DNA of 64,000 nt from positions 1-64,000 of the forward strand of contig WHTT01000010.1 in the NCBI GenBank assembly GCA_009377605.1, read 5' to 3'. This DNA comes from Luteitalea sp. (GTDB taxonomy: Bacteria; Acidobacteriota; Vicinamibacteria; Vicinamibacterales; Vicinamibacteraceae). This document shows positions 16,761 to 37,568 of this stretch, one piece after another. The position numbers and the translations under genes were made by a program. How positions within the stretch are numbered: the first letter of the stretch is position 1; each line of letters begins with the position of its first letter. Below the pieces are notes generated by a model. The model was given only the letters and a program-made list of their open reading frames with translations. It did not search any database and was not told the DNA's origin.

Positions 16761-16905
16761 ACCAGGGCAGTGACCAGTGGTCAGTGATCAGCCGATGTAC
16801 GAGCTTCCGGGGGTTGCATCGTTTACCGGGGTCGTTCGCCGTTAGCCCCCGAACAGTCGAAGATCGGCTGACCACTGGCCACTGATCACTGACCACTGCC
16901 CTGGC
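16761..16905. repeat. Inverted CAGTGACCAGTGGTCAGTGATC repeats
   Basis: The left arm (16765-16792) repeats the units CAGTGACC, AGTGGTC and AGTGATC. The right arm (16866-16905) carries the complementary GACCACTGGCC, ACTGATCACTG and ACCACTGCC. About 70 bases separate the arms. The right arm encodes the last codons of the AMP ligase. The remaining intergenic sequence from 16594 shows no gene. Confidence 0.8.
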
Positions 16906-18361: not shown

Positions 18362-18379
18362 TGAGATAGGCTCGTTCTC

Positions 18380-18829
18380 ATGCGCTACCTCGACCTGCTG
18401 CCCCACGCGCCGCCGATGCGCCTGATCGAAGAGGTGCTGGAGGTCGCTCCGGGCGCGCGCGTGCAGGGACGCCGCATCGCACATGCAGACGACTGGTACT
18501 TCAACGGACACTTTCCGGGTCGACCTGTCGTGCCCGCCATTGTACTCGTCGAGCTCGTCGCGCAGGCAGGTGGGCTTGCCGTGGGTACGGCTGCGGAGGA
18601 CGCGCCACCGGCGCCGCGAGCGCTGCGCGTGGCAGGGCTCGGGCCGTTCAAGTTTCCGGCGGCGGCGGGACCGGGCAGCGTGCTCGTCGTCAACGCGCGC
18701 GTCGTCGGCCGCATCGGCAGTCTTGTCAAGATCGAGGGCGACGTGCACGCAGACGGAACCTTAGTCGCGGCAGGGAGCGTGGTGCTCGCGGACGTCGGCA
18801 CTCGTCGCGCAGGCCTGCGCTACGACTGA
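18380..18829 (+). CDS. 3-hydroxyacyl-ACP dehydratase (FabZ-like hotdog)
   Basis: A 149-residue single-hotdog protein. The catalytic His44 lies in NGHFPGRPVVPAIV and Glu58 in LVELVAQAGG, as in FabZ. It removes water from 3-hydroxyacyl-ACP to give a trans double bond; repeated use without enoyl reduction gives a polyene. It is transcribed away from the AMP ligase, with a very short shared upstream region. Its 3' end overlaps the convergent chorismatase gene by 10 bases. Confidence 0.85.
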   Translation: MRYLDLLPHAPPMRLIEEVLEVAPGARVQGRRIAHADDWYFNGHFPGRPVVPAIVLVELVAQAGGLAVGTAAEDAPPAPRALRVAGLGPFKFPAAAGPGSVLVVNARVVGRIGSLVKIEGDVHADGTLVAAGSVVLADVGTRRAGLRYD

Positions 18830-19764
18830 CCATTCCCAAGAGCCGCAATACCTTCGACCTCGACGAGGAGCTCTCGCCGGCAGATCTCACCGCGTGCGAT
18901 TTCGATGTCCTCGGTGTCGGGAAAGAGCTTGCTGGTCTGTTCCAACACGAATGCGGCGTCATCCGCACGCACGACGTAGGCGCGCAGTGCGGTGAACCGG
19001 TACGACGGCTGTGGGGCAGGCCCCTCGATTGAGGCATTCGCCGCCGCGAGCAGCGCTTCGAGATTGGTCAGCGTTTCGCGGGTCTGGCGGCCGATATCCT
19101 CCGCATGCCGCGATTCCTCGCCCACGATGCTTGCCGTACCCCCCACCAACAGGAGCTCTCGCCCGCCGATGGCGCGAGCAGGCCGCGTGGCGCGCGCAAA
19201 GCAGGGTGGCCGCGGACCGTAGCGAGTCGAGTAGTGATACGAAGGGATCTGACGAGGATTCTCAATCGGCGTCCCCGGCTCGTCTGCCGCCAGACAATGC
19301 ACCGTGAGCGTGGCCCCCTCGACGCCCACTGCCGACGCTGTTGCAAGCGTGTGATCGAACGCGCGCGGTGTGCCGTACCACGAGGTGAACGCGCGATAGC
19401 GCCCTCGGTTGAACACCATGTAGCGATCGAGCCCCTCGCCCATGGGGGCATGGATGTCCGGCACGTAGCTCCAAAATCGCACAGGGTGCCGTGCTTCGTC
19501 TGCCAGTCGGTGCGCGATGTTCAAGTACACATCCGCTACCAGGTCCTGGAATCGTTCGGGCGGGAGAGCCGTGGCTCGCGAGACCTCAACCTCGACGAAC
19601 GACAACTGCGGCAGGCGGCGCACATAGACGCCTCCGAGTCTGGTCGGCCCATCGTCGACTCGCCGGCGCGGTGCCTCACCTAGCAGCTCTATGAGCCACC
19701 GGGGAGGAGCGGCGACGAGAGTGGGCAGCGCAGGCGGACGGGCATAGGGGGCGCGAATCGTCAT
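18820..19764 (-). CDS. Chorismatase (FkbO/Hyg5/XanB2 family)
   Basis: A 314-residue enzyme of the chorismatase fold. It shows RFWSYVPDIHAPMGEGLDRY, a central SYHYSTRYGPRPPCFARATR, and GGTASIVGEESRHAEDIG followed by QTRETLTNLEALL, all hallmarks of the family. The family hydrolyses chorismate to 3-hydroxybenzoate, 4-hydroxybenzoate or dihydroxycyclohexadiene carboxylate. XanB2 supplies 3-hydroxybenzoate as xanthomonadin starter. Which product is made here cannot be read off with confidence. Start ATG 19764 (MTIRAPYARPP) is preferred over an upstream extension lacking family similarity. Its placement among polyketide genes fits starter supply. Confidence 0.82.
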   Translation of the reverse strand: MTIRAPYARPPALPTLVAAPPRWLIELLGEAPRRRVDDGPTRLGGVYVRRLPQLSFVEVEVSRATALPPERFQDLVADVYLNIAHRLADEARHPVRFWSYVPDIHAPMGEGLDRYMVFNRGRYRAFTSWYGTPRAFDHTLATASAVGVEGATLTVHCLAADEPGTPIENPRQIPSYHYSTRYGPRPPCFARATRPARAIGGRELLLVGGTASIVGEESRHAEDIGRQTRETLTNLEALLAAANASIEGPAPQPSYRFTALRAYVVRADDAAFVLEQTSKLFPDTEDIEIARGEICRRELLVEVEGIAALGNGQS

Positions 19765-19858
19765 GGGAACGTGCAGGGAGACCTGCCCTGCGCCGGTGCG
19801 ACCATGATACAGCCAAGACGCACGAGTCGGCGGGCACCGACTACAATGCGAGGAGGTT

Positions 19859-21052
19859 ATGGCTGTCGACATGTCCTCGGCCGGACGTCTCCGATCGCGC
19901 GCGCTCACGCGAGCCGGGCGGCTCCAGCGAGTGATCTACGAGCTTCGGACGGAGGGCACCAGCCGGCGCCGCGACGCAGTGGCGGTCGGCCTGGGACTCT
20001 TCGTGGGCTGCTCGCCGTTCTGGGGGCTTCACCTGGTGCTCTGCTGGATCGCTGGGCGACTCCTTGGCCTCAACCGCTTGAAGCTGTACCTCGCCGCGAA
20101 CCTTGCAAACCCGTTCTCCGCGCCGTTTCTGGTGTTCGGGGAGGTGCAGACCGGTGCCTTCTTGCGGCGCGGCGCGCCGCATGAGCTGTCATTGGAGGGC
20201 ATCAAACAGACCAGTCCATGGGTCTTTGGTGGTGACTTCGTGCTCGGGAGCCTGGTCGTTGGTGGGGTGCTCGGCCTCCTGGCTGCGGCGATTACGTACT
20301 TCACGATGCGACGCGCATCACACGATCCGGCATTTTCGACGGTGGTGCGCGAGGCTGCCGATCGGTTTCTCGCCACCGGCATCACCGCCTGGGAGTTCGC
20401 GCGCGGGAAGTTGCGGAACGATCCCGTCTACCGCGAGGTGTTGTGTGGCGGCTGGCTGCCATCAGGTGGGACCCTAGTCGATGTTGGATGTGGTCAAGGA
20501 CTCATGCTCGCGCTGCTTGCCGACGCTCGGCAGGAAATGGAAGAAGGGAGGTGGCCGTCGACCTTGCCCCCGCCGCCTCGCTTCGACGGCTTGGCGGGCC
20601 TCGAGCTGCGGCGGCGTGTCGCACATATCGCAGAGCGCGCGTTGGAGAAGGACGCCACGATCGTCCACGGTGATGCGCGCCACACCCTGCCTCGAGGCTG
20701 TCGCGTCGTCCTTTGCTTCGATGTTCTTCACCTCATGTCGGCCGAGGACCAAGATCAGCTGCTGGCGTCGGTCGCGAGCGCGCTAGAGCCGGGGGGCATT
20801 CTCGTGGTGCGCGAGGCGGATGCGGCCGGAGGTTGGCGCTTTCAGATGGTTCGCGCCGGCAACTGGATCAAGGCGATTGCGATCGGCCGGTGGCGGCAGA
20901 GGTTTCACTTTCGCACGACGGACGAGTGGCTGGCCTGCCTGGCGCGTCACGGCTTCGTGGCCGATGTTCGGCCCATGGGCCACGGGACTCCTTTTGCGAA
21001 CGTCCTGCTCCGGGCCAAGCGGCAGCAAGAGCTAAGGACCGACGCGGCGTGA
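19859..21052 (+). CDS. DUF2062 membrane domain fused to SAM methyltransferase
   Basis: A 397-residue two-domain protein. Residues about 35-155 are a DUF2062 module (RRRDAVAVGLGLFVGCSPFWG, ANLANPFSAPF, two to three membrane helices). Residues about 195-395 are a class I methyltransferase with LVDVGCGQGLMLALL as SAM-binding loop and a later CFDVLHLMS. Cluster methyltransferases modify the aromatic head of aryl polyenes, so a membrane-tethered ring or phenol methylase is a plausible role. AGGAGG sits only 2 bases before ATG 19859, so ATG 19871 is an alternative start. Confidence 0.75.
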   Translation: MAVDMSSAGRLRSRALTRAGRLQRVIYELRTEGTSRRRDAVAVGLGLFVGCSPFWGLHLVLCWIAGRLLGLNRLKLYLAANLANPFSAPFLVFGEVQTGAFLRRGAPHELSLEGIKQTSPWVFGGDFVLGSLVVGGVLGLLAAAITYFTMRRASHDPAFSTVVREAADRFLATGITAWEFARGKLRNDPVYREVLCGGWLPSGGTLVDVGCGQGLMLALLADARQEMEEGRWPSTLPPPPRFDGLAGLELRRRVAHIAERALEKDATIVHGDARHTLPRGCRVVLCFDVLHLMSAEDQDQLLASVASALEPGGILVVREADAAGGWRFQMVRAGNWIKAIAIGRWRQRFHFRTTDEWLACLARHGFVADVRPMGHGTPFANVLLRAKRQQELRTDAA

Positions 21053-22107: not shown

Positions 22108-23043
22108 TCACCTGGTCGCGCCGTCACCTGCCACGTCCCAGTAGCGATAGAACTGATACCACAGCTCGGGGCGCGCGCGAACGCGTGCTTCGATCGCTTC
22201 CGCCACGCGTTGCGTGGCGTTCTGAACGAGCGTCTCACGATCGCCGTCACGCCCGACGAAGATGGGAGCCCCCAGGTGCACCAGAAATCGTCCATCGTCG
22301 CGACGCTCGAGCGAGACCGGCACGAGCGGCGCGCCGGTCAAGTACGCCATGAGCGCCGGCGTGCGGAGAAAGAGCGCTTGGCGTTCGAAGAGCGTGACCG
22401 GCACGCGGTCGCGGCCGACGTGCCGATCGACGAGGAGAGCCACGAGCTGACCTTCCGAGAGCTTCCGGCGAATCTGCAGCGCGGTGTCCATCGACTGTCG
22501 CACGGAAATCGTGTCGATGCCCAGCGCCTGCCGAATCGTGTCCCGGAGGCGATTGGCCTCCGGGCTCGCTTCCGTCATGGCCAACACGCTCAGCGGGTAG
22601 TCGTACGCGCGGCGCAACAGGATGCCGCCCATCTCCCAGTTGCCATGATGAGCGCTGACGAGGAGCATGCCGCGTCCAGCATGCAGGAGCTCATCGACCG
22701 TCTCCCGGTTATCGAACAGGAACAGGTCGCGCGCCTCTTCTCGTGAGAGGCGCAAGCCGCGAATGAAGTCGATGACGTCGCGCGCGTAGCTGCGATAGGT
22801 CGCCAGCGCGCGTTGCCGGAGCGCCGCGTCACTCTCGGTTGGAAAGACGACGCGGAGGTTGTGGACGAGGGCGTCCGTCGTTGCGTGCATCAATCGCCAT
22901 GCGAGGAAGGTGCTCGCATGGCCAATGCCGTACGAGACCGAGCGGGGCAGCACGCTCACGCCACGATACGTGGCGGCGTAGATGGTCCCGCTGTTCAAAG
23001 CGTGTGACGTCCAGGAGGTTGTCGGCGAATCGGCGCTACGCAC
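22108..23043 (-). CDS. HtrB/LpxL-type lysophospholipid acyltransferase
   Basis: A 311-residue inner-membrane acyltransferase. The catalytic His-x4-Glu is seen as AHHGNWEMGG, and the later LVDRHVGRDRVPV and RTPALMAYLTGAPLVP blocks are typical of the lipid A acyltransferase family. In aryl-polyene clusters this family is thought to attach the chain to a lipid or glycolipid anchor. It lies 6 bases after the glycosyltransferase stop, within an exporter-glycosyltransferase-acyltransferase operon. The start is GTG 23043. Confidence 0.82.
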   Translation of the reverse strand: MRSADSPTTSWTSHALNSGTIYAATYRGVSVLPRSVSYGIGHASTFLAWRLMHATTDALVHNLRVVFPTESDAALRQRALATYRSYARDVIDFIRGLRLSREEARDLFLFDNRETVDELLHAGRGMLLVSAHHGNWEMGGILLRRAYDYPLSVLAMTEASPEANRLRDTIRQALGIDTISVRQSMDTALQIRRKLSEGQLVALLVDRHVGRDRVPVTLFERQALFLRTPALMAYLTGAPLVPVSLERRDDGRFLVHLGAPIFVGRDGDRETLVQNATQRVAEAIEARVRARPELWYQFYRYWDVAGDGATR

Positions 23044-23049
23044 GTCAGG

Positions 23050-23721
23050 TTACATCCTTTCGAGGAACCGGTAATACACCGCGAGAAAGCAGGTCTTCGT
23101 AGTGTCGCGCATGGGCCGCAGCTTGCTGCGCTCCATGCCGTACACCGCGCTGACGGGCATCTCGATGATCCGAGCTCGGCGTCGCGCGAGCTTGACCAGC
23201 ATCTCGGTCTCGATCTCGAAGCCCGTGGCGCTGAGCGGGACGTTGCGCAGCGCCTCGCAGCGGTACACACGGAATCCTGACTGTGTATCTCGAAGTGGAA
23301 GCCCCACGAACCACGAGAGCACGCGGCTACCAGTCACGTTCGCGTAATAGCGTGAGGCTGGCATCGCAGCTCTGTCGAACCGCCGGCCGCCGATGACGAG
23401 GTCGGCTCCGGAGCGCCGCGCCGTGTCGAGCAGCCGCGGGACCTCGTCTGGAACGTGCTGCAAGTCACCGTCCAAGACGACGAGGTGTGTGGCAGGCGAA
23501 GCGAGCACGACTGCCAGCCCGGCACGCACCGCACGCCCTTTTCCGAGGTTGCGCGTGTGCGAAATGACGTCGGCGCCCGCCTGCCGCGCTGCTTCACCCG
23601 TTCGATCCGTCGATCCATCGTCGACCACGAGCACCCGCTCGACGTGCGGCGCGACGCCGCGGACGACGCGGGCGATCGTGCTCACTTCGTTGTACGCAGG
23701 AATCATGGCTTGCGCGCGCAT
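23050..23721 (-). CDS. Family 2 glycosyltransferase
   Basis: A 223-residue GT2 enzyme of the dolichol-phosphate-mannose-synthase-like branch. IPAYNEVSTIARVV opens the nucleotide-sugar domain, VVDDGSTDRT and VLDGDLQHVPDEV carry the metal-binding aspartates, and LRDTQSGFRVYR is the acceptor-side motif. There is no C-terminal membrane anchor. It overlaps the exporter gene by 19 bases, so expression is coupled. The neighbouring acyltransferase suggests it builds a sugar-containing anchor for the product (inference). Confidence 0.85.
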   Translation of the reverse strand: MRAQAMIPAYNEVSTIARVVRGVAPHVERVLVVDDGSTDRTGEAARQAGADVISHTRNLGKGRAVRAGLAVVLASPATHLVVLDGDLQHVPDEVPRLLDTARRSGADLVIGGRRFDRAAMPASRYYANVTGSRVLSWFVGLPLRDTQSGFRVYRCEALRNVPLSATGFEIETEMLVKLARRRARIIEMPVSAVYGMERSKLRPMRDTTKTCFLAVYYRFLERM

Positions 23722-26222
23722 GTCGCTCCAACCCGCTCCAACATCGCCGGCAGCACCAGCACCGACGCCGCCACCAGCGCCAGCACGCTCACCGCGGACA
23801 CGACGCCGATCGACTGCAGCGGCGGGTACGACGAGTTGATCAATGTGCCATATCCGAGCAGCGTGATGAGGCCGGCCACGAGAATCACGGGCGCGAGCTC
23901 CGACGTAGCCCGTTCAGCGTGGTAGCCATACTGCCGGTACCGGTGCACGAGGTGGATGCCATAGTCGACGCCGATGCCCACGAAGGTGACGACCGCAAAG
24001 ACGGCGAACAGATCCAGCTCGACACCGGCGAGTGCGAGCACACCGGCGGTCCAGACGAGGCCGAGCGCCGTTGGGGCAAGCGCGAGCAGCGAGAGCCGCC
24101 ACTCGCGGAACGTCGCGAGGATCAGCGCGAGCACGATTGCCGTGCCCACGCCGAGGCCCTTGAGAAACTCCGGCAGGAAGCGTGCCGCGAGCTCGGCGTT
24201 CACGAGCGGCAAGCCGGTGAGCTGTTGATCTGGCGCCACGCGTCGCACCAGCGCGTCGACGCGCGCGATATCCTTGGCGTCGCGTGGCAGCACGTACGAG
24301 GCGAGCACCCAACCGCCGCCCTCGCGCGACACGAAGCGCGAGATGACATCGCCGAGACCGTGGTCGACATACCCCTGATAGCTCACCCGTTGCGCGCGGT
24401 CGAGCAGACGCGGCAGACGCGCCACGAAGGGGGCGAGCGTGTCGGTGCGGAAGCCAACGTCGGTCGCGACTTGGTGGATTCTCCGTCCAGCGACGTCGGG
24501 CGAGAGACCCTCCTGGCGCAAGCGCTGCCTCGTGACGGCTTGCTGGCGAGACGAGGGCAGCAGCGCGCTCACGGTGTGAATCGGAAGGCCCGGTAGCTCG
24601 CGATGGATCGCGTCGGCGAGCTTCGCGTTCCCGTCGACGAGCGTCTGCAGCTCCCTGCCGCGCGCGAGCACGACGCCGACGTCGGTTGGCAGGCCAAACC
24701 GTCGCGCCACCGCTTGCTCGAACTGGACAGCGGGCGTCGTGGACTCCAAGCGCTCCAGTGTCGGGTTGACCTGCAGTCCGAGCGCGGCGACGGCGAGCGC
24801 GACCGTGACCAGGGCGGCCGCGATGAGAACGAGGCGACTTTGTCGACCGATGAGCGCGGCAAGACCTGGCAGGGTGAGCGCTCGTGGCGGGCGGGTCCCC
24901 GGTCGGGACGGGAGCATGGCCGGCACGAGGAGCAATGTCAGAATGCCACAGACGACCATACTGTGGCCAATGAGCATACCGAGCTGTTGCAAGCTCGGGT
25001 AGTCGATCACCACGAGCCCGTAGAAGGTTGCGGCCGTGGTCCACATGCCGAGCAGCATGCTCGCCGATGCGCCTGACGTTCGACGCACGGCCTCGTGCGA
25101 GGGCAGCCCGTCGCTCAGACCGAGCCGATACGTCACATAGAGCAACACCACGCCATCGATGCCAAGGCCGAAGAGCATGGCCGACGCGCCTGTCGCAGCG
25201 GCTGAGAGGGTAGTGCCGGCGAAGCCCAGGGCCCCCAGTACCACGAGCAGCGAGAGCCCGGTCGGAATTGCGCCACAGGCCAGCAGCCACGGGCTACGAA
25301 AGATGAGCAGGAGAGCGGGCAGGATCAGGACCAGCGATCCGATGCTGTTGACGATGCTCTCGCGCTTGATCTGTGCCTCGGTCTCGATGCCGATCCGATG
25401 GCCACCAGCGTATGCCACGTCCAGCGGCGGCAACGCGTCGGCGAACGGATCGGAGATCACGTCGCGGGACTCTTCGTTCGGCGTGTTGCGTTCGAGACCC
25501 ATATCGTGCGTGACGGCCCGCTCGATGTCGTTCAGCCGCTCGAACAATCGATGCGAAAACGCGGTATCGAACGGCGGCGAGCTGGGGCGGGCGATCACGA
25601 GCCGGCTCTGGCCATCAGGAGCGACGTATCCGGAGCTGCTCGCCCCGAGGCCTACACCGGCGCTGCCGCCTCCGAGCTGCGCGCTCAAGAGGTTGAACAG
25701 CCCAAGGGGATCCTGGCTCACCATCGTGGTCACCGCAGGTGATGGCAGCGTCAGCAGCCTTCGGCTTGCGTCGAGCGCCTCACGCATCTCCTCCGGCTCG
25801 AAGCGTGCAAGGGCCGCGTGGAGCCGTTGCTCGTCGAGCAGCCACAACAGGTGATCGGCCAGATACGACCAGTCGCGCGTGGTATCGATGCGACCGGTGT
25901 CGATGTGATCGATTTCGGGAGCTTTGCCCAGTCGTGCGACGAACCGATCGATGACGGAATCGTATTCGTCGATGGTGTGGTCAGGCGGTGCGGTAAAGAC
26001 GATGTAGAGTTGATCGAGGCTGCCGAATCGTTCGAGATAGGTCTCGAAGGCGGGCACCGCCGCGCCCTCTCGAGGCAACAGATGGAGCACGTTGGCATCG
26101 AACCTCACTCGACTGACACCAACCACCGAGACGAGTAAGAGCACGCAGGTGCCGATGAGCACCAGGCGGCGGTGGCCCCTGGCCCAAGCGATGAGGGCGG
26201 GTATTGAAAAGATGCCTGTCAT
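23703..26222 (-). CDS. MMPL/RND-superfamily exporter
   Basis: A protein of about 839 residues with two RND halves. Each half has one N-terminal membrane helix, a large periplasmic loop and a five-helix bundle (for example IVNSIGSLVLILPALLLIF and LFGLGIDGVVLLYVTYR, then VGTAIVLALILATF and FVGIGVDYGIHLVHRYR). The GxGxDxxxxL/HxxxR signatures of MMPL transporters are clear. In aryl-polyene clusters an MMPL protein is proposed to carry the lipid-linked product across the inner membrane. The frame is open upstream to 26378, but ATG 26222 (MTGIFSIPALIAWARG) best fits the family start. Confidence 0.85.
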   Translation of the reverse strand: MTGIFSIPALIAWARGHRRLVLIGTCVLLLVSVVGVSRVRFDANVLHLLPREGAAVPAFETYLERFGSLDQLYIVFTAPPDHTIDEYDSVIDRFVARLGKAPEIDHIDTGRIDTTRDWSYLADHLLWLLDEQRLHAALARFEPEEMREALDASRRLLTLPSPAVTTMVSQDPLGLFNLLSAQLGGGSAGVGLGASSSGYVAPDGQSRLVIARPSSPPFDTAFSHRLFERLNDIERAVTHDMGLERNTPNEESRDVISDPFADALPPLDVAYAGGHRIGIETEAQIKRESIVNSIGSLVLILPALLLIFRSPWLLACGAIPTGLSLLVVLGALGFAGTTLSAAATGASAMLFGLGIDGVVLLYVTYRLGLSDGLPSHEAVRRTSGASASMLLGMWTTAATFYGLVVIDYPSLQQLGMLIGHSMVVCGILTLLLVPAMLPSRPGTRPPRALTLPGLAALIGRQSRLVLIAAALVTVALAVAALGLQVNPTLERLESTTPAVQFEQAVARRFGLPTDVGVVLARGRELQTLVDGNAKLADAIHRELPGLPIHTVSALLPSSRQQAVTRQRLRQEGLSPDVAGRRIHQVATDVGFRTDTLAPFVARLPRLLDRAQRVSYQGYVDHGLGDVISRFVSREGGGWVLASYVLPRDAKDIARVDALVRRVAPDQQLTGLPLVNAELAARFLPEFLKGLGVGTAIVLALILATFREWRLSLLALAPTALGLVWTAGVLALAGVELDLFAVFAVVTFVGIGVDYGIHLVHRYRQYGYHAERATSELAPVILVAGLITLLGYGTLINSSYPPLQSIGVVSAVSVLALVAASVLVLPAMLERVGATCARKP

Positions 26223-26319
26223 CGTCACGTTCGAGAGCGGTCGATCGGCGCCGTCTGCGATGACTTCGCGTCGGTTGGCGATCATATCTTCATCGCGGAC
26301 GATTTGTGCCACGTAGGGC

Positions 26320-26348
26320 TTGACACGCGGCGAGGGTGACGCTAATTT
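26320..26348 (+). promoter_or_regulatory. Predicted promoter for blaI-like gene
   Basis: TTGACA (26320-26325) and TAATTT (26343-26348) are separated by 17 bases, ahead of the BlaI-family gene and divergent from the exporter. The expected start of transcription near 26355 leaves a leader of roughly 50 bases, in which a BlaI operator could lie; I do not see a perfect dyad. Confidence 0.4.
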
Positions 26349-26402
26349 TTCAGCATTGTGGGACTTGAGCGCGTTCACCCTCGGACTTCACGCTAGATCA
26401 TC

Positions 26403-26801
26403 GTGGCTTTACGAATGAACCGACCGCTTCACCTGGACGTTTCCCGCCGCGAGCGGCAAATCCTGGAGATCCTGTACGCGCGTGAGCGAGCGAGCGTCGC
26501 AGAGGTTCGCGCCGCCCTGCCCGAAGCGCCGAGCTATTCAGCCGTACGCGCCCTCCTTCGGATCCTCGAAGAGAAGGGCCATGTTCGGCACGTGCAGGAT
26601 GGGCCGCGCTACGTCTACGCGCCGACAATCGCTCGCGACAGCGCCAAGCGGTCGGCGCTACGACACATGCTCCGGACCTTTTTCAACGGGTCGACCGAGC
26701 AAGCCATCGCCGCCCTCTTGGACGACTCCTCTTCCCGACTCTCCGACGACGAACTGGCTCGCCTGGCGCGCCTGATCAACCAGGCACGACACAAGGAATA
26801 A
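26403..26801 (+). CDS. BlaI/MecI/CopY-family repressor
   Basis: A 132-residue winged-helix repressor. LDVSRRERQILEILYARERASVAEV opens with the usual helix-turn-helix, followed by SYSAVRALLRILEEKGHV (recognition helix) and GPRYVYAPTIARD (wing). A C-terminal dimer helix follows. Such repressors are cleaved by the signalling M56 protease encoded next to them, here 3 bases downstream. The start is GTG 26403 or ATG 26415. It sits divergent from the exporter and may control it; this is an inference from position only. Confidence 0.85.
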   Translation: MALRMNRPLHLDVSRRERQILEILYARERASVAEVRAALPEAPSYSAVRALLRILEEKGHVRHVQDGPRYVYAPTIARDSAKRSALRHMLRTFFNGSTEQAIAALLDDSSSRLSDDELARLARLINQARHKE

Positions 26802-26804
26802 CCG

Positions 26805-28123: not shown

Positions 28124-28834
28124 TCATTGCCCTTCCCAATCAATCTGGGGGTTCAATTCGACGTCTTCGAACGTCATGAGCTTCGTGTCCCCGCTCGGGA
28201 ACGTCAAACGCATTCCGCTCGGCAGAAACGAGCGCTGATCGACCCACAGCTCCAACTTTGTGATCGCCTGCAAAATCTGTTTGCGCTTGGGCACCATGGT
28301 GACGAGATACACGCCCTTCGACTCGCCCCTTTGGGCGGAGGTAATGCTGGCGTGAATGCGAAAGTGGCTCCGTAACTCATCCGGGTCGGCGTCGACGAAG
28401 TATCGTTGGATGCGTCGCTGCGCGGTCCCGATGTCCTTCGTTTCATTCACGCCACGGCTTGGCCACGTAAGGATCAACCGCTCGCCGTCGATCACAATCG
28501 TTCGTTCGTCGGGCGATGTGTACGTGAGCCGCACGCGCGACGGTCGAACGAGTGCCACCGAGCCGTGCTCGACGAGCGGTCGCGTGAGCATCGACGAGGT
28601 GGTGGTCTCGGTGACGCGAGCGGTCAGCGTCCGGAGAGATGTGCGCACGTGCTCGCTCTTGCGAAAGAGCTCATCGAAGAGATCCGGATCTTGGCTGGCG
28701 GTTCCGGCGCGAACGGTCACGAGGCCAAACAGCGCATGGAAGATGCACCACAACGAGGCAGCGGCGCCGAGACGAGCCGTCCAGGTGCGCACCCGGAGCC
28801 CCGCGCCCTGGCTCTCGAGTGGTTGATGCTTCAT
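28124..28834 (-). CDS. LolA-like outer-membrane lipoprotein carrier
   Basis: A protein of about 236 residues with an N-terminal hydrophobic signal (LGAAASLWCIFHALFGLVTV). A LolA/LolB-type half-barrel domain follows, with SGMRLTFPSGDTKLMTFEDVELNP, the characteristic last strands. Aryl-polyene clusters regularly carry such a LolA relative, thought to ferry the lipid-linked product across the periplasm. ATG 28834 (MKHQPLESQGAG) is preferred; 25 bases separate it from the divergent ketosynthase GTG. Confidence 0.78.
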   Translation of the reverse strand: MKHQPLESQGAGLRVRTWTARLGAAASLWCIFHALFGLVTVRAGTASQDPDLFDELFRKSEHVRTSLRTLTARVTETTTSSMLTRPLVEHGSVALVRPSRVRLTYTSPDERTIVIDGERLILTWPSRGVNETKDIGTAQRRIQRYFVDADPDELRSHFRIHASITSAQRGESKGVYLVTMVPKRKQILQAITKLELWVDQRSFLPSGMRLTFPSGDTKLMTFEDVELNPQIDWEGQ

Positions 28835-28859
28835 CGCGGCCAATGGTAACGTACGCCGC

Positions 28860-30092
28860 GTGCAGCGCCCCGCCTGCATTACCGGCATTGGTGTTCTCTC
28901 CGCCCTTGGTTGCTCTCCTCACGCATTTCGCGAGGCCTTGCTCGGCGGGCGTACGGGCATTGGCCCGATCACGACGTTCGACACGTCAGGCTGCCAGTCG
29001 AAGCTGGGTGCGCCACTCAAGGACTTCGATGCGACGCGCTGGCTCTCCCCGCTCAAGTTGCGACGCATGGATGAGACCGGCCGTCTCGCCGTCGTCGCCA
29101 CGCGCGAAGCGCTCGACGATGGGGGCTGTCGTATCGGCGAAGGGGGCGACGATCGCCTCGGCGTCGTCTTGGGCACGTATACGGCGGGCGGACCTGCAAC
29201 CAGCGAGTTCTTGGCGGCCCTCCTCCGTGGCGGGCCAACGGGCGTGCCCGCGCTCCTCTTCAGCAGCACGGTCGGGAACGCGCCAGCCAGTCTCGCGGCG
29301 CTCGAGTACAAGCTCCGCGGGCCGAACAGCACCATCAGCCAGAAAGAGTGCTCGGGCCTTGCCGCGATTGCCACCGCCGTGGATCTGCTCGCCGAAGGTC
29401 GTGCGCGTGCCGTTGTCACCGGCGGCGTCGATGCACTGTTCGCTGTCTTCTTTCAGGTCCATGATCGGTTTGGTGTACTGGCCAAATCAGATGGGGACGT
29501 ACCCGAACGGAGCCAGCCATTCGATCGGTGGCGCAATGGATTCGTGCTCGGCGAAGGCGGCTTCGGCCTCCTGCTCGAGGAAGCCGAGTCCGCCCGGGCG
29601 CGTGGTGCGCGTGTGTACGGCGCGGTGCTGGGCGTCGGAGCGTCGAGCGCCGTGTCCGGGATCAACGCCTGGCCTTCGGACCCGCGCGCCCTCGCGCGGA
29701 CCATGCGGCTGGCGCTGGAGGAGGCGGGTGTCGACCCGGCGGACATCGCGGCCATCTACGCCTCGGCGAACTCGACGGTGGTGCTGGACCGCGCGGAGGC
29801 AGAGGCCATCGCCCTCGTATTCGGGCCGCGCGATGTGCTCGTCACTGCGATCAAGGGCGCGATCGGCGAGTTCGGAGCATCTGGTGCGGCCGCGTGTGCC
29901 GCAGCGCTCCTGTGTGGCGAGGCAGGTCTCGTCTCCCCCACGGCCGGACTGACGGAGCAGGATCCGGCATGCGCCCACCTTCGGATCCCGACTGCGGCGG
30001 TGCCGCTGGCCGGACGCTTCGTCCTCGTCAACAGCTTTGCAAGCGGCGGTGCCACATACAGCGTCGTCTTGCGGGTGGGCGACCAAGCGTGA
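28860..30092 (+). CDS. Beta-ketoacyl synthase homologue lacking both catalytic His (chain-length-factor-like)
   Basis: A 410-residue thiolase-fold protein of the FabF type. The nucleophile position is kept (Cys164 in ISQKECSGLAAI). The first catalytic His is replaced (ASANST, Ser302), and the second is Glu337 (IKGAIGEFGASGA); the Lys (332) remains. Such a protein cannot catalyse normal decarboxylative condensation alone. It most likely pairs with the intact ketosynthase at 36348-37568, as ApeC-like or chain-length-factor subunits do. The start is GTG 28860. Confidence 0.82.
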   Translation: MQRPACITGIGVLSALGCSPHAFREALLGGRTGIGPITTFDTSGCQSKLGAPLKDFDATRWLSPLKLRRMDETGRLAVVATREALDDGGCRIGEGGDDRLGVVLGTYTAGGPATSEFLAALLRGGPTGVPALLFSSTVGNAPASLAALEYKLRGPNSTISQKECSGLAAIATAVDLLAEGRARAVVTGGVDALFAVFFQVHDRFGVLAKSDGDVPERSQPFDRWRNGFVLGEGGFGLLLEEAESARARGARVYGAVLGVGASSAVSGINAWPSDPRALARTMRLALEEAGVDPADIAAIYASANSTVVLDRAEAEAIALVFGPRDVLVTAIKGAIGEFGASGAAACAAALLCGEAGLVSPTAGLTEQDPACAHLRIPTAAVPLAGRFVLVNSFASGGATYSVVLRVGDQA

Positions 30093-30195: not shown

Positions 30196-30952
30196 GTGTC
30201 CTTTCGAGGAACTCCAGCTCACGGACCGCGTAGCGGTCGTCACCGGCGGGTCTCGCGGCATCGGACGCAGCATCTCGGAGCTCTTGGCGGAGCGTGGCGC
30301 GGCCGTTGGCATCTTGTTTCGCGAACGTGTCGACGCGGCGCGCGAGGTCATCGCGACGGTCGAGGCGCGCGGTGGCCGCGCAGTGGCGGTGCAGTGTGAT
30401 GTGGCCGACGAGGCCGCAGTGAACGATGCATTTGCCCGTGTCACGCGTGAGCTCGGACCTGTCGATATCCTGGTCAACAATGCGGGCATCAATCATGACG
30501 TGCGCTTCCTGTTGATGGACCGCGCGGCATGGGACAAGGTGTTGAGGGTCAACCTCGATGGGGCGTACTACTGTACGCGAGCCGTCATTCGAGCCATGCT
30601 ACAGCGTCAGCGGGGACGTATCGTGAACATCACCTCACCCAGCGCAACGTTGCCGCTGCCGGGGCAAGCGAACTATGCGGCGTCGAAGGCGGGATTGGTC
30701 GGCTTGACACGTGCGCTCTCACGCGAGCTCGCTGGCCGCGGCGTCCTCGTGAATGCCGTCTGCCCAGGCCTCGTCGAGACCGACATGGTGACCAGCATGC
30801 CGGCCGACTTGCGGGCCGAGAGCCTTGGGGCCATACCCATGAATCGGTTCGGTTTTCCACGCGAGGTTGCCGCGTTGGTCGCCTTCATTTGTTCCGATGC
30901 CGCGAGCTACATCACAGGCCAGGTCATTGCCGTTGACGGCGGTCTTACATAG
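30196..30952 (+). CDS. 3-oxoacyl-ACP reductase (FabG family) with +1 frame change at codon 4
   Basis: The body is a full FabG-type [13 protein letters not shown] cofactor loop, NNAG, and [20 protein letters not shown] with catalytic Ser/Tyr/Lys, ending VIAVDGGLT. In that frame no ATG, GTG or TTG precedes the cofactor loop. A GTG at 30196 with GGGAGGGG just upstream reads GTG TCC TTT, and a +1 step at TTT-C (30202-30205) joins it to GAG GAA CTC CAG. This gives [18 protein letters not shown], a normal FabG start (251 residues). Either one base is inserted or the ribosome shifts. Its role is to reduce the beta-keto group in polyene extension. Confidence 0.75.
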
Positions 30953-31114: not shown

Positions 31115-31381
31115 ATGAGTGATGCTCTCAAGGCGGAGATCAAGCAGGCCATCGTGCGGTGTCTTCGGCTTCCCATCCAGCCGGAGGAAATCGAGGACCG
31201 AGCAGCCTTATTCGGGGAGGGGCTGGGGCTCGATTCCATCGACGCTCTCGAATTGGTCTTGGAGCTGGAGCGCTCGTTTGGTGCCGTGATCGACAACGAA
31301 GAGGCCGGCGGCCGAATCCTGCGGTCGGTCGACACGATTACAGAGTTCGTCGAGCAACAGCGCACGGGCAGCGGACGATAG
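31115..31381 (+). CDS. Acyl carrier protein
   Basis: An 88-residue acidic four-helix protein. The phosphopantetheine serine is Ser41 in GLGLDSIDALELVLELE. It carries the growing chain for the cluster ketosynthases. ATG 31115 (MSDALKAEIK) fits the family length; a longer frame from 31076 adds an unlikely leader. The stop is 6 bases before the deacetylase start, so it is cotranscribed. Confidence 0.9.
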   Translation: MSDALKAEIKQAIVRCLRLPIQPEEIEDRAALFGEGLGLDSIDALELVLELERSFGAVIDNEEAGGRILRSVDTITEFVEQQRTGSGR

Positions 31382-31387
31382 ACGCTT

Positions 31388-32290
31388 GTGTCACTGAACG
31401 CCTTCACGGTCGACCTCGAGGAGTGGTTCCACATCTGCGGTGTCGAGGGGCCGCTGTCTGCCTCCAACTGGGCGAACCTGCCATCTCGGGTCGAGCTCAC
31501 CACGCGACGGTTACTGGACGAATTGGATGCCGCCGGCGTTCGGGCGACGTTCTTCGTCTTGGGGTGGGTTGCTGCGCGGTACCCCTCGATCGTGGGCGAG
31601 ATCGCGGCCGGAGGGCACGAGATCGGGTCGCATGGCTACTGGCACCGCTGGGTCCACATGCAGACGCCAGAGGAGCTCGCCGCGGACCTCGATGCCGGCG
31701 TTGGTGCGCTCGCTGCGGCCGGGGTCGGTGGTGTCACGGCCTATCGAGCGCCCGAATGGTCGATCAACGGTCGCTCGCCTTGGGCGCTCGAATGCCTGGT
31801 ACGTCACGGCTTTTGCATCGACGCGAGCATGGCACCGGTCGCGATCGTGGGACGTGCCTCGTACCCTCGCCGGCCGCACGTCCGCGCCACATGGGCAGGA
31901 CCGATCCTCGAGGTGCCACCTCTCGTCATCGACCGTCTCGGCCAGGCGATGCCCATCGGCTGGGGCTGGGGCCTGCGGATGAGCGCACCGCGCCGCGTCT
32001 TGGCCGCCATCGAGCAGGCGAATCGTGCGGGCGATCCCGCGGTCCTCATGGTGCACCCCTGGGAAGTGGATGCTGATCCGCCGCGGGTGTCCTTGCCGGC
32101 ACGCCAGCGCTTTGCCCACTACTTTCGGTTGGATGGCTTCCTCGCTCGGCTTCGTGTCATCCTGCGCGGCGCGTCGTTTCGACCGCTTGGCGAGGTGCTG
32201 GCGTCCGACGCGGGGCTGATCTCGCAGGGAGCCGCCAGATCGGCCGCACATGCGCATCAACGGTCGAATGGGTGTAGGCCCGACCTCTAG
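31388..32290 (+). CDS. Polysaccharide deacetylase family protein
   Basis: A 300-residue NodB-fold enzyme. FTVDLEEWFH carries the first metal/acid residues, GHEIGSHGYWH the two metal His, and YRAPEWSIN the arginine motif. The C-terminal part (MVHPWEVD, FRLDGFLARLR) is like the DUF3473 extension of deacetylases from exopolysaccharide loci. There is no signal peptide, so it may act in the cytoplasm on a sugar head group or lipid-linked sugar. It follows the carrier protein in an apparent operon. A deacetylase is not a usual aryl-polyene gene. Confidence 0.82.
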   Translation: MSLNAFTVDLEEWFHICGVEGPLSASNWANLPSRVELTTRRLLDELDAAGVRATFFVLGWVAARYPSIVGEIAAGGHEIGSHGYWHRWVHMQTPEELAADLDAGVGALAAAGVGGVTAYRAPEWSINGRSPWALECLVRHGFCIDASMAPVAIVGRASYPRRPHVRATWAGPILEVPPLVIDRLGQAMPIGWGWGLRMSAPRRVLAAIEQANRAGDPAVLMVHPWEVDADPPRVSLPARQRFAHYFRLDGFLARLRVILRGASFRPLGEVLASDAGLISQGAARSAAHAHQRSNGCRPDL

Positions 32291-32312: not shown

Positions 32313-35258
32313 ATGCACGTCATGCTTCGTGCGTTCGGCTGCGTAGCCTGCCTGGTGATTGCTGTCGCAACCGTCACCGCGCAAGCTCAGCAGCCGTCGC
32401 TCCCACGCGTCGCGTTCGATGAGCGCCTGGACACGCCGCCCGTCCTGGTCTCCGCCCTCGCTTCGGCGCCTGCACCCGCGTTCCCGGTCATGGCACGAGT
32501 GCTCGTCACGCGCCGGGATCTCGAGCCGATGCCTGGGAAGTACGCGTTCGAGCGCCTCGAGGAGCGTTTGAATCAGTATGCCAAACGCGAGATTGACGTG
32601 TGGCTGAGCGTTGGCGGCATGCCGGACGGGCTCGACGAAGCGGAGGGTTGGACCGCGTTCGTGCGCGCCCTCGCGGCACGCTCGGTTCGCCGTGTTCGAC
32701 TGTTCGAGCTGTCCATCGATGAGCGTGATCCCAAGGTCGCTGCCTACCTCTTCAAGCTGGCGGCGACAGAGATTCACGGACGCGACGAGGAGACCCTCGT
32801 CGGCCTCGGAACCAAGCCTGGCGTTAGCGCCTCGACACTCGAGGATCTCTATCGCGAGGATCTCGGGCCCTACGTGGACGCTGTCACTCTTCCCGCATCA
32901 CTCGACGCCGATACCTCTCACGACATAGCGCGCGCGCTCGCACGCGTCGATCAGTCTGCCCGACTGCTCGTGAGCGGCGTCGCACTCGGAGAGACCACGC
33001 AAGCGGCCGCTCGCCAGTTCATAGGAAAAGAGCTGCAGGCGCTTGGAACGGCAACGCTCACACGGAGCTATCGGACCGAGCCGGCCAATGTGGAGCAGGT
33101 GCTCGCAGCTAGTCGAGCGATCGCCGACCTGCTCACGGGAGCGCTGGTGCCCCTCGATCCGGATGCTGCCTCATTGCGCCTCGCTCGGGGTGGCCAGGAC
33201 CTCACCAAGACCGCGGGCTACCGGCTGCTCTACAGCATCGAGACATTCGCGACATACCTCGTCTACTGGGGCGACGCTGCAGACGGTGAAGCGCTGGAGG
33301 TCTCGCTGTCGCTTCCACTCGAAGGCGACCCGGTGGTGCGCGATCCGTTCGATGGGTCGCAACGGCCGGTAGACGGCTATGCGCATGACCGATCGGCCCA
33401 GCGGATCAGCGCACGTGTGCCGTGGAGGCCAGGGCCGTTGATCGTGGACTTCAACCAGGGGGCGACCTCGGTGGTCGCCGAGCGTCAAGAGGTGACGGGG
33501 CGCCCCTCGCTGAGCGTGGAGGAGATCATCGCGCGGCATCAGCGACAGCAGGTGTCACAGGACGCGGAAGTCGACAACTACACGGCCCTGGTTCGGATGG
33601 AACAGCATTTCCGTCCGGCGCTCACCGACCCGGGCTACGACATCGTCAGCGAGAACCGATACTTCGTGCAGGGGCGCGACGTGGAGTGGGAAGAGCTGTC
33701 GTTCTCGGTGAACGGGACGCGCTGGGGGCCGGACCGGCCGCCCTTCCCGCTGCTGCAACCGGAAAAAGTGCTTTCGCTGCCGCTCGACCTGCGGTTCACG
33801 GCCGACTACCGTTATCGACTGGCAGGAACCGAGCGCATTGGAGAGCGCGCCTGCTACGTGGTGCGATTCGACCCCGTGCATCGAGACCGCTCGCTGTATA
33901 GGGGGACCGTCTGGATCGATCAGGAGACGTTTGGACGCTTGAAGGTGCACGCCGTGCAAACGGCGCTCTCGGCACCGGTCGTGTCGAACGAGGAGATCCA
34001 GACGTTCGAGCGCGTCGCGACGGTGGGAGGGCGTCCGGTCATGCTGCTCACCGACCTCTCGAGCCGTCAGCTCCTGCTCATCGCGGGTCGCAACATCCTG
34101 GTCGAAAAGCGTGTGCGCTTCAGCGACTTGGCGATCAACGACCCTTCGTTCGACCGCAAACGTGAGGTGGCGCGGGCTAGCGATCGCGTGATGTACAAGG
34201 AGACGGAGGAGGGCCTGCGATACTTCGTGAAGGATGGGGAGCGCCGCGTGGTGCGCGAGCGACCGACGCTGTCGGCGAAGGCGATGGCCATGGGCACGAC
34301 CATCGATCCTTCGTTCGACTTCCCTCTGCCGATCTTCGGCATCAACTACCTCGACTTCGAGTTCGGGGGCCCCGACACGCAGTTGGCGCTGCTGTTTGGC
34401 GGGGTGCTGGCGGTAGGGAACATTCAGTGGCCAAGGCTCGGTCGAACGCCGCTCGACGCAAGCGTCGACTTCTTCGCGATCGCGGTGCCCTCGAGCGACC
34501 GCGTCTACGACCCGGACGGGGAACTGGAGGCGGAGCGCCTCCTGACTTGGCCGATGACCGCTGGCGTCAACCTCGGCTATCAGTTCACCGACTTCCAAAA
34601 GGTGGGGCTGCGGTATCACCTTGGCTTCGATGCCTACGCCAATGAGCGGACTACCGGCGAGACGTTCGAGCGGCCCTCCAGTACGCTGACCAGCGGGATT
34701 GGTGCCACCTACGAGCTCCGGCGGCATGGCTATAACCTGACGGCCTGGGGCACCTGGTTCGGACGAGCTCGCTGGCGACCCTGGGGGCCAGCCGATGAGC
34801 TCGATCCGGGCGAGAAGACCTACGTCAAATACGGCGGCGTGCTAGCGCGGGACATCCACTTCCGGACGTTCCACAAGATTCACGTGGACGCCGCGTACTT
34901 TGGTGGGGAGCGCCTCGATAGGTTCAGCAAGTATCAGTTTGGACTCTTCGACGATACCCGGATCCACGGCGTGCCCGCGTCGGGGTTACGCTTTACCCAG
35001 CTCGCTGCCCTGCGGGCGTCGTATTCGTTTAATATCTTCGAGCAGTATCGGTTGGATCTGTTCGCCGACCGCGCCTGGGGTCGAGACGAGGAGCTCTCGA
35101 AGGCGTGGCAGCCAATCACGGGGCTTGGCGTCGGCGTGAACGTGCGGGCACCGTGGCGTACGATCTTGCGAGCCGATGTCAGCAAGAGCTTCTTGCCGCG
35201 CCAGTACCGCTCATCGGGGTCGACGGTGGTTCAGGTGATGCTCTTGAAACCGTTGTGA
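32313..35258 (+). CDS. Large three-part outer-membrane protein of unknown function
   Basis: About 981 residues with a signal peptide (MHVMLRAFGCVACLVIAVAT, cleavage near AQAQ). Residues about 25-370 look like an alpha/beta, perhaps TIM-barrel-like, domain. Residues about 400-560 contain YRYRLAGTERIGERACYVV and GTVWIDQETFGRL, resembling the LolA/LolB-type half-barrel of outer-membrane lipoprotein-sorting proteins. Residues about 660-981 are strand-rich with many aromatics and end VVQVMLLKPL, consistent with a terminal beta-barrel. I do not recognise the whole architecture. Its place between the deacetylase and PHP genes suggests surface display or insertion of the cluster product. Confidence 0.6.
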   Translation: MHVMLRAFGCVACLVIAVATVTAQAQQPSLPRVAFDERLDTPPVLVSALASAPAPAFPVMARVLVTRRDLEPMPGKYAFERLEERLNQYAKREIDVWLSVGGMPDGLDEAEGWTAFVRALAARSVRRVRLFELSIDERDPKVAAYLFKLAATEIHGRDEETLVGLGTKPGVSASTLEDLYREDLGPYVDAVTLPASLDADTSHDIARALARVDQSARLLVSGVALGETTQAAARQFIGKELQALGTATLTRSYRTEPANVEQVLAASRAIADLLTGALVPLDPDAASLRLARGGQDLTKTAGYRLLYSIETFATYLVYWGDAADGEALEVSLSLPLEGDPVVRDPFDGSQRPVDGYAHDRSAQRISARVPWRPGPLIVDFNQGATSVVAERQEVTGRPSLSVEEIIARHQRQQVSQDAEVDNYTALVRMEQHFRPALTDPGYDIVSENRYFVQGRDVEWEELSFSVNGTRWGPDRPPFPLLQPEKVLSLPLDLRFTADYRYRLAGTERIGERACYVVRFDPVHRDRSLYRGTVWIDQETFGRLKVHAVQTALSAPVVSNEEIQTFERVATVGGRPVMLLTDLSSRQLLLIAGRNILVEKRVRFSDLAINDPSFDRKREVARASDRVMYKETEEGLRYFVKDGERRVVRERPTLSAKAMAMGTTIDPSFDFPLPIFGINYLDFEFGGPDTQLALLFGGVLAVGNIQWPRLGRTPLDASVDFFAIAVPSSDRVYDPDGELEAERLLTWPMTAGVNLGYQFTDFQKVGLRYHLGFDAYANERTTGETFERPSSTLTSGIGATYELRRHGYNLTAWGTWFGRARWRPWGPADELDPGEKTYVKYGGVLARDIHFRTFHKIHVDAAYFGGERLDRFSKYQFGLFDDTRIHGVPASGLRFTQLAALRASYSFNIFEQYRLDLFADRAWGRDEELSKAWQPITGLGVGVNVRAPWRTILRADVSKSFLPRQYRSSGSTVVQVMLLKPL

Positions 35259-35260
35259 AG

Positions 35261-35354
35261 GGTCCTTAGTTCTTGGTCCCTGGTGCGCCTAGTACGCTTC
35301 GATGCTTCGCGACGCCAAGACGCACCAAGAACCAAGGACCAAGGACCAAGGACC
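35261..35354. repeat. Inverted AAGGACC tandem repeats
   Basis: GGTCCTTAGTTCTTGG at 35261-35283 faces CCAAGAACCAAGG plus three further ACCAAGG units at 35325-35354. It is the same family and geometry as 5107-5250. It ends 7 bases before the PHP gene ATG. Confidence 0.8.
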
Positions 35355-35361
35355 TGAAAGA

Positions 35362-36351
35362 ATGGCCCGCGCCGACTTACACGTCCACTCGTGTCACTCC
35401 AAAGCGAACGGCAACCTGCCGTTGTTGAAGAGCCGTGACTGCTACTCGTCTCCGCTGGATGTGTATCGGCAGGCGCGAGCGCGCGGCATGGATGTAGTCA
35501 CGATCACCGACCACGACAGCATCGATGGCTGCTTGGAGCTGCTGGCGGAGCGGCCGGATGCGCGCGACGTCATCATCGGCGAGGAGATCTCCTGCTGGGT
35601 GCCGGACACGGACTTGCAAGTTCACCTGGGCGCGTACGGGATGACGGAAGCCATCCATCGGTCCGTTCAGCCGCTGCGCGACAACGTGTTCGATGTCGCC
35701 GCGTACCTCCGCGCATCAGGCGTCTTCTTCTCGCTGAACCACCTGCTTCACTTCTACAAGGACCAAGTTCCGCTCGAGGCGTACCTCCGCCTGCTCACGG
35801 AGGTCCCCGCCCTCGAGGTCCGCAACGGCACGATGCTCGAGGCCCACAACCAGTTGGTCGAGTCCATCCGTGAAAAAGGAACCGGTTCTTTTTTCTCCCC
35901 ACTCGCTCTGGTGGCTGGCAGTGACGCGCACACGCTGCGGCGGGTGGGCACGACGTGGACCGCGGCTCCGGGCGAGGACGCGCACGAGTTCCTCGCGAAC
36001 GTGGCGTGCGGCCTGGGGCAGGCCGGCGGCGTGCACGGGACGACGCTCACAATTGCCGGCGACGCGTATGGCGTCATCTGGCGGTATTGCAAGAGTCTCG
36101 TCGGGTTGGGCCCCAACGATCACACCTGGCTCGAGCGTGTGTTCTGCCTCGCCACGGCCGTCGCGTCGATTCCGTTTCAGTGGCTGCCGGTGGCGATTGC
36201 GCTCCGTGGCAAGCGAAGCGAGGCACGCTACGTCGACCGCTGTGCGAGGCAGCTCCGCGAGTGGCGCGAGGGAGCCGAGGCGGCATCCCGCGCTGCCACC
36301 GTGAGCCGGGCGTCTGCGCCGGTGTTGGCGGATGAGGAGATGCTGGGGTGA
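35362..36351 (+). CDS. PHP-domain metal-dependent phosphoesterase
   Basis: A 329-residue protein. The PHP metal motifs are complete: DLHVHSCHS, TITDHDSIDG, GEEISCW, LNHLLHF and AGSDAHTLRR. Members hydrolyse phosphoesters such as histidinol phosphate or nucleotides; this subtype is not assigned. The stop (TGA) overlaps the next ketosynthase start in GTGA, so the two are translationally coupled and it belongs to the cluster. It might remove a phosphate from a sugar or lipid intermediate (inference). ATG 35362 is chosen; the upstream frame is repeat translation. Confidence 0.83.
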   Translation: MARADLHVHSCHSKANGNLPLLKSRDCYSSPLDVYRQARARGMDVVTITDHDSIDGCLELLAERPDARDVIIGEEISCWVPDTDLQVHLGAYGMTEAIHRSVQPLRDNVFDVAAYLRASGVFFSLNHLLHFYKDQVPLEAYLRLLTEVPALEVRNGTMLEAHNQLVESIREKGTGSFFSPLALVAGSDAHTLRRVGTTWTAAPGEDAHEFLANVACGLGQAGGVHGTTLTIAGDAYGVIWRYCKSLVGLGPNDHTWLERVFCLATAVASIPFQWLPVAIALRGKRSEARYVDRCARQLREWREGAEAASRAATVSRASAPVLADEEMLG

Positions 36352-37568
36352 GCGAGCGGCGCGTGGCCGTCACTGGCGTCGGCCTCATCTGCGCGCTGGG
36401 GATCTCGCGGGAGGAGGTCTGGCGGGCGATGCTTGCCGGCGAGTGTGGCATGCGTCGCGTGACGCTCTTCGATCCGGCGGGTCATCGGAGCGAGATCGCC
36501 GGCGAGATCGATCTCGAGCCTGCGCTCGACGGGTTCACGCCGCTCGAACGGCGCCGGTGGTCGCGGAGTGATCAGCTCGGTGTGATCGCGGCCAGCGAGG
36601 CGATCGCCGATGCCGGCCTGCTCGACGCGGCGCTCGATCCCACGCGAGTGGGCGTGCTGCTCGGCTCGGGCACCGCTGACTTGCTGCGCAACGAAGAGTA
36701 CTATTTCACGATGTTGCGCCGCGGGATCGAGCGCGCGCGCCCGTCGAAGGCGTGGAACCATTTCTCCAGCACCCCGGTCGACGTCATTGCCGCGCGGTTT
36801 GGCTTTGAAGGCATGCGCTCCTGCATTGCCGCCGCCTGCTCGTCGAGCACCATCGCCATCGGCCACGCGGCAGAAGCCATCCGCCACCATCGCCTGGATG
36901 TTGCGCTGGCCGGCGGCACGGACGCATTGGCGAGGCTGACCTTCAGCGGCTTCAATGCGTTGCGGCTGATGGATCCGGGCCCCTGCCGTCCGTTCGACCA
37001 GCGGCGCAATGGCATGAACATCGGTGAAGGTGCCGCCATCCTCGTGCTCGAGGACCTGGCGCGTGCGCGCCGCCGCGGCGCCGCGATTTACGCGGAGGTG
37101 GCGGGCTACAGTTTGAGCTGCGAGGCGTACCACCCGACCGCGCCGGAGCCGGACGGCCGAGCCGTGGCGACGATGGTGAACGCGGCGCTCGACGCCGCTC
37201 GCGTGTCGGCGACGGAGGTCGATCACCTCAACGCGCACGGCACCGCGACACCTCAGAACGATAGGGCAGAGGCAAATGGGTTCGTTGCCGTCTTCGGTGC
37301 ACACACACGCCGCTTACCGGTGACGTCGATCAAATCGATGGTCGGTCATTGCCTCGGGGCGGCGGGCGCCGTGGAAGCAGCGGTGCTCGCGCTGACCATC
37401 GCGCGAGGCGTCATCCCCCCTACGATTCACCACGAGGCCACCGATCCGGCGTGTCCAATCGATGTCGTCGCCAATCGAGCGCGCGAGCAGCGCGTCGGCT
37501 GCGGCGTCTCGACCTCGCTCGCCTTTGGCGGCAACGATGCCGCTCTCGTGTTGCGCGCCGTTCAGTGA
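36348..37568 (+). CDS. Beta-ketoacyl synthase, complete active site
   Basis: A 406-residue FabF-type ketosynthase with all catalytic residues: Cys164 (AAACSSSTIAIG), His297 (NAHGTATPQ), and Lys329 and His334 (IKSMVGHCLGAAG). It condenses malonyl-ACP with the growing chain and is the likely active partner of the histidine-less homologue at 28860-30092. Its GTG start overlaps the PHP stop by 4 bases. It faces the convergent PAP2 gene with a 16-base gap that contains a fragment of the GTAGGG repeat. Confidence 0.9.
   Translation: MSERRVAVTGVGLICALGISREEVWRAMLAGECGMRRVTLFDPAGHRSEIAGEIDLEPALDGFTPLERRRWSRSDQLGVIAASEAIADAGLLDAALDPTRVGVLLGSGTADLLRNEEYYFTMLRRGIERARPSKAWNHFSSTPVDVIAARFGFEGMRSCIAAACSSSTIAIGHAAEAIRHHRLDVALAGGTDALARLTFSGFNALRLMDPGPCRPFDQRRNGMNIGEGAAILVLEDLARARRRGAAIYAEVAGYSLSCEAYHPTAPEPDGRAVATMVNAALDAARVSATEVDHLNAHGTATPQNDRAEANGFVAVFGAHTRRLPVTSIKSMVGHCLGAAGAVEAAVLALTIARGVIPPTIHHEATDPACPIDVVANRAREQRVGCGVSTSLAFGGNDAALVLRAVQ

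Follow-up and report, generated by a model that had tools for sequence, protein, structure and literature searches.

A 981-residue protein combining a degenerate PslG-like, a LolA/RseB-like and a probable outer-membrane barrel domain is linked to aryl polyene-type gene clusters in Vicinamibacterales

We describe a 981-residue protein of the acidobacterium Luteitalea sp. as a candidate for the outer-membrane step of an MMPL-LolA transport route, where it would accept and insert an aryl-polyketide lipid in the place that ApeN has in Escherichia coli, an assignment to which we give about even chances. The protein combines three recognised domains, its gene is linked to a polyketide gene cluster and it is under selective constraint. 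The order of its parts is a signal peptide, a PslG-like TIM barrel, a beta-sandwich, a LolA/RseB-like domain and a probable outer-membrane beta-barrel. The window analysed here is a stretch of 64,000 nucleotides of contig WHTT01000010.1, and the features are collected in Table 1.

Table 1. Features of the gene cluster and of the 981-residue protein in the window
Feature	Position	Strand	Basis
Radical SAM protein, HMPTM-type zinc ribbon, cluster edge	14662..16593	-	
AMP-dependent acyl ligase, probably starting near 18400	16886..18748	-	
FabA/FabZ-like dehydratase	18383..18826	+	PF07977 3.4e-16
FkbO/Hyg5-type chorismatase, putative aryl starter supply	18820..19908	-	
DUF2062 plus methyltransferase	19859..21052	+	
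Lipid A-type (HtrB-like) acyltransferase	22108..23043	-	PF03279
Family 2 glycosyltransferase (GT2)	23053..23721	-	
MMPL/RND exporter (HpnN/BstA-like), proposed inner-membrane extractor	23703..26378	-	
LolA-like periplasmic carrier, proposed donor	28124..28840	-	PF03548 2.4e-11
Ketosynthase-like, probable chain-length factor (CLF)	28860..30092	+	retains Cys, lacks both catalytic His motifs
FabG-like ketoreductase, start approximate	30203..30952	+	relatives and sequence
Acyl carrier protein (ACP)	31115..31381	+	PF00550
Polysaccharide deacetylase with DUF3473 (XrtA-type)	31388..32290	+	
Whole gene, probable outer-membrane protein under study	32313..35258	+	open reading frame, coding composition, dN/dS
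Sec signal peptide, residues 1-26	32313..32390	+	sequence inspection
GH-A (PslG/GH39-like) TIM barrel, residues 27-280, catalytic acid/base not conserved	32391..33152	+	family profile, fold match
Beta-sandwich, residues 281-388, like the carbohydrate-binding part after the PslG TIM barrel	33153..33476	+	position, model
LolA/RseB-like domain, residues 389-600	33477..34112	+	Pfam and profile matches
Probable outer-membrane beta-barrel, residues 641-981	34233..35255	+	strand alternation, relatives' C-termini, weak fold matches
PHP metallohydrolase (CehA/McbA-like)	35302..36351	+	
Ketosynthase; Cys, HGT and GHxxGA motifs intact	36348..37568	+	

Results

The gene and its coding evidence

The original prediction of an open reading frame of about 980 residues within a pigment-like cluster holds, the frame running from an ATG to its stop over 981 codons (981 amino acids; the longest version starts at 32250 and gives 1002 amino acids) with chorismatase, MMPL and LolA genes nearby. 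The predicted signal peptide was likewise found by inspection (MHVMLRAFGCVACLVIAVATVTAQA-QQ), showing no lipobox. The coding GC pattern of 0.68/0.47/0.79 and a whole-gene dN/dS of 0.16, obtained by comparison with the 76% identical orthologue of a Luteitalea metagenome-assembled genome (L024), show that the gene is real and under strong purifying selection. Resolved by part, dN/dS in this comparison is 0.27 for the TIM barrel, 0.24 for the sandwich, 0.12 for the LolA-like domain and 0.08 for the barrel region, the most constrained part of the chain.

The gene is present in a single copy in its own genome. Searches with the single sequence matched LolA/RseB only weakly and found no relative of solved structure, a scan of a genome collection returned two relatives, and a plasmid scan returned no match. 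A literature search in an open-access library turned up nothing on DUF5686 or on a fusion of glycosidase-like, LolA-like and barrel domains.

The surrounding cluster

The cluster carries an aryl polyene-type gene set consisting of ketosynthase (KS), CLF, ketoreductase, dehydratase, ACP and a putative aryl-acid ligase, accompanied by the corresponding transport set of an RND/MMPL exporter and a LolA-like chaperone; its product would be an aryl polyene. The first of the two ketosynthase homologues lacks both catalytic His motifs and is therefore probably the CLF, as judged from its sequence. The dehydratase gene, which fills a seeming gap in the cluster, lies masked by the 5' extension of the AMP-ligase frame, which runs in the opposite direction, and was found through a weak match to the ApeP profile. 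Neither the ApeI nor the ApeP profile gave a match above cut-off, the cluster dehydratase being FabA-like.

A YdjM-like membrane protein is also found among the cluster neighbours. Between the MMPL and LolA genes lies a pair encoding a BlaI-type repressor and an M56 peptidase (26403-27644, plus strand), seen in the window and in L024 only. Relatives of the radical SAM protein occur near the cluster in two further genomes (G026 and G053).

Linkage within Vicinamibacterales

Close orthologues (43-76% identity) share the same gene arrangement over whatever length their contigs cover, sitting between the deacetylase (or ACP) gene and the PHP or second ketosynthase gene, with LolA, the first ketosynthase homologue, ACP and MMPL nearby where the contig extends far enough. 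Besides the window, four genomes of the same family yielded the chorismatase. Among 60 related genomes, a close orthologue was found in 14, of which 13 also have the CLF (Fisher p 2.7e-12); none has a CLF without the gene. The sole orthologue lacking a CLF (G006) comes from a fragmented genome and sits on a short contig. In a midpoint-rooted tree the cluster-linked copies form one clade with support 100/100. The proposed domain order, cluster membership and co-occurrence are borne out.

A second cluster type and the wider family

A second cluster type, likewise aryl-polyketide-like, is found in a sister lineage (L092, G127), in which radical SAM, GT2/DUF2062, HtrB, ACP, KS, CLF and LolA genes are followed directly by a homologue sharing 31% identity with the window protein. 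This arrangement is conserved in a genome of another family (G401). It was seen at the loci L092 and L106, where GT2 is fused to DUF2062. The nearest relatives of the L092 copy in the tree set (L016 and L023) are sister to the clade of the window protein with support 96/94, again in the midpoint-rooted tree. The position of the gene directly after lolA strengthens the transport reading. We reject the idea that such clusters are never accompanied by homologues, since they are in two lineages; most members of the wider family are found elsewhere.

Homologues are present in 106 of 297 Acidobacteriota genomes, about a third. Distant homologues lie mostly away from LolA and polyketide synthase genes, so what the family does in general may differ from its role in the cluster and is broader than an aryl polyene-like pathway. 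Polysaccharide genes are often found near them, and about a quarter of the 29 distant loci examined have MlaE, MlaD or PlsC-like genes nearby. The distant homologues at L064, L065, L066, L068, L098 and L099 have MlaE, MlaD and PlsC-like acyltransferase genes nearby.

A degenerate glycosidase domain resembling PslG at the N-terminus

The original prediction of an alpha/beta, possibly TIM-barrel-like region is made more specific by our data. A profile built from 20 family members matches the solved structures of PslG (1.3e-8), endoglycoceramidase II (3.5e-6) and several beta-galactosidases, showing the TIM-barrel fold of clan GH-A, and five of 37 family members match Pfam GH42. Foldseek searches with a low-confidence model, which we take as a hint, likewise place PslG first (E 8.7e-7). 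The beta-sandwich that follows is the best-predicted segment of the model, with block means of mostly 56-78 pLDDT, and PslG also has a carbohydrate-binding beta-sandwich domain after its TIM barrel (PMC7237758).

In PslG, Glu165 acts as acid/base and Glu276 as nucleophile (PMC11912335). The motif NEP containing the acid/base residue is not conserved here, and none of the positions that are invariant or nearly so in the 20 N-terminal domains is a Glu; by eye, the aligned motif is altered or deleted in the cluster-linked copies, and the window protein has an Asp at the ungapped position. The profile alignment ends before the position of Glu276. We conclude from these alignments that the N-terminus carries a PslG-like glycosidase domain that has degenerated, and reject a glycosidase activity as in PslG. 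An EP pair is kept in a few distant members (L036, L047 and L050), and an active ancestor of the domain is therefore possible.

These features allow a reading in which the protein handles glycans at the surface or in the periplasm, its PslG-like and sandwich domains binding or slowly cutting a polysaccharide or glycolipid head group together with the adjacent deacetylase and the remainder of the chain serving as outer-membrane anchor. We regard this as rather unlikely, though PslG is the best match by profile and by fold, nearly all related cluster loci have the polysaccharide deacetylase gene immediately upstream, the distant homologues often neighbour polysaccharide genes, and the pairing of a deacetylase and a glycosidase domain is reminiscent of PgaB (PMC5933820). 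The missing conserved Glu, the N-terminal domain being the least constrained part of the chain compared to the LolA-like and barrel parts, and the second cluster type, in which the gene follows lolA with no adjacent deacetylase, all argue against it.

The middle domain belongs to the LolA/LolB/RseB superfamily

The predicted LolA/LolB-like middle region was recovered with curated Pfam models. MucB_RseB (PF03888) matches it with 25.1 bits, above its cut-off of 22.3, placing the domain in the LolA/LolB/RseB superfamily, whereas the match to LolA_like (PF17131) stays below its own cut-off (26.2 bits compared to 30). The family profile of this domain matches the LolA-fold structures 4z48 (1.2e-5) and 3bk5 (0.0016), and a direct hhalign comparison with the LolA-like protein of the cluster gave a weak result (probability 11.5%, E 0.0026). 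One homologue has a weak match to DUF5686 (PF18939) spanning the LolA-like region. We considered membership in DUF5686 and did not adopt it, the best member reaching 19.2 bits compared to a cut-off of 39.2; the window protein and its genome gave no match, and the Bacteroides ihuae control did match.

The MucB_RseB match would also agree with an RseB-like sensor of the lipid or protein state at the outer membrane, having a general part in envelope biogenesis or stress and recruited to the cluster, and the occurrence across the phylum mostly outside such clusters points the same way. The annotated neighbours in the window contain no noted anti-sigma factor or RpoE-like gene, and a sensor of general function does not sit well with the way the gene and the CLF strictly co-occur in its order, making this explanation improbable.

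The C-terminal region is a probable outer-membrane barrel

The hydrophobic alternation of residues 641-981 is 0.82 compared to 0.61 +/- 0.05 in shuffled sequences (about 3.9 s.d.), by a simple score that is also raised in the LolA-like part. The motif LDRFS at residues 868-872 is nearly invariant. Of 37 homologues, 20 have Phe or Trp as their last residue; the C-terminus of the window protein is the non-aromatic LKPL, and the cluster-linked copies end in LKPL or similar. AlphaFold2, run with alignments of three sequences, gave low-confidence models for the full-length chain (pLDDT 35) and for the barrel alone (pLDDT 36.6), so that fold matches serve as hints. The barrel-only model is mostly beta and not a soluble all-alpha structure, and the 50 listed fold matches are nearly all outer-membrane barrels, with E-values of at least 0.0097.

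Taken together, the alternation, the C-termini of the relatives and the weak fold matches suggest that residues 641-981 probably form an outer-membrane beta-barrel. That the C-terminal third is instead a soluble beta-rich domain of a periplasmic protein acting as carrier or scaffold only would fit the absence of any Pfam barrel family above cut-off and the low-confidence models, and is very unlikely given the strand alternation, the aromatic ends of the relatives and the mostly-beta model with its barrel matches.

Discussion

Our data are consistent with a pathway in which chorismatase and ligase would supply an aryl starter, which KS/CLF, the FabG-like ketoreductase, the dehydratase and ACP would extend, and which the HtrB-like acyltransferase and the glycosyltransferase might attach to a lipid or glycolipid. 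MMPL would then take the lipid out of the inner membrane and LolA would carry it across the periplasm, where the LolA/RseB-like domain of the 981-residue protein may accept it and the C-terminal barrel may pass or insert it into the outer membrane. A sugar or glycan could be bound, or the complex positioned, by the degenerate PslG-like domain. The protein would thereby stand in place of the LolB-like ApeN of E. coli. The hand-over from the LolA-like protein, as originally predicted, fits all of the evidence, including the second cluster type with the gene directly after lolA; we infer the barrel and the ligand, as well as which way transfer runs and what the glycosidase-like domain does. We count the distant homologues beside MlaE, MlaD and PlsC in favour of the outer-membrane acceptor, and the weak hhalign result, the LKPL end, the low pLDDT and the distant homologues found elsewhere against it.

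In a more far-reaching form, which we put forward tentatively, the protein would be a single-chain LolB-like receiver and membrane barrel for a lipid-linked polyketide, using a retired glycosidase domain to recognise its sugar and delivering it to the surface, and would be the first to be described from a family of lipid-placing barrels found across the Acidobacteriota. A protein in which a LolA-like domain is joined to a probable barrel, and which is conserved in two different cluster types, would make the hand-over from the LolA-like carriers of aryl polyene-type clusters to the outer membrane accessible to experiment. The protein also points to a large family of envelope proteins that is so far undescribed, present in about a third of the sampled Acidobacteriota genomes.

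Comparison with known systems

By profile, the middle domain shares the lipid-binding half-barrel fold with PF17131, PF03888, 4z48 and 3bk5, differing from the two Pfam families in being an internal domain of a large chain instead of a free carrier or lipoprotein. The likeness to DUF5686 is confined to the weak match of one homologue across the LolA-like region, well below cut-off. With PslG, a GH39 enzyme of Pseudomonas aeruginosa, the protein shares a GH-A TIM barrel followed by a carbohydrate-binding type of beta-sandwich and a location in an envelope-glycan cluster, whereas the Glu165 motif is not conserved here and the chain continues with LolA-like and barrel domains.

One of the closest parallels is the aryl polyene system of E. 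coli, for which ApeM (RND), ApeL (LolA-like) and ApeN (LolB-like) were proposed as transport set, weak Lol homology alone being reported for ApeL and ApeN (PMC8253772). Both systems have an MMPL/RND protein and a LolA-like carrier in a cluster of KS, CLF, ketoreductase, dehydratase, ACP and acyltransferase genes with an aryl starter (PMC8253772); the cluster described here differs in its 981-residue multi-domain protein, in its chorismatase, deacetylase and PHP genes, and in having additional genes related to sugars. DUF3261, representing ApeN, matched in none of the 60 related genomes, in a search in which the controls were silent too. The BBJ25-BBJ28 cluster of Borrelia, for which export of lipids or lipoproteins has been proposed, similarly includes both an outer-membrane barrel and a LolA-like protein, although its barrel is of the Omp85 type, its transporter a MacB-like ABC transporter, and its LolA-like domain is encoded by a separate gene (PMC13078400).
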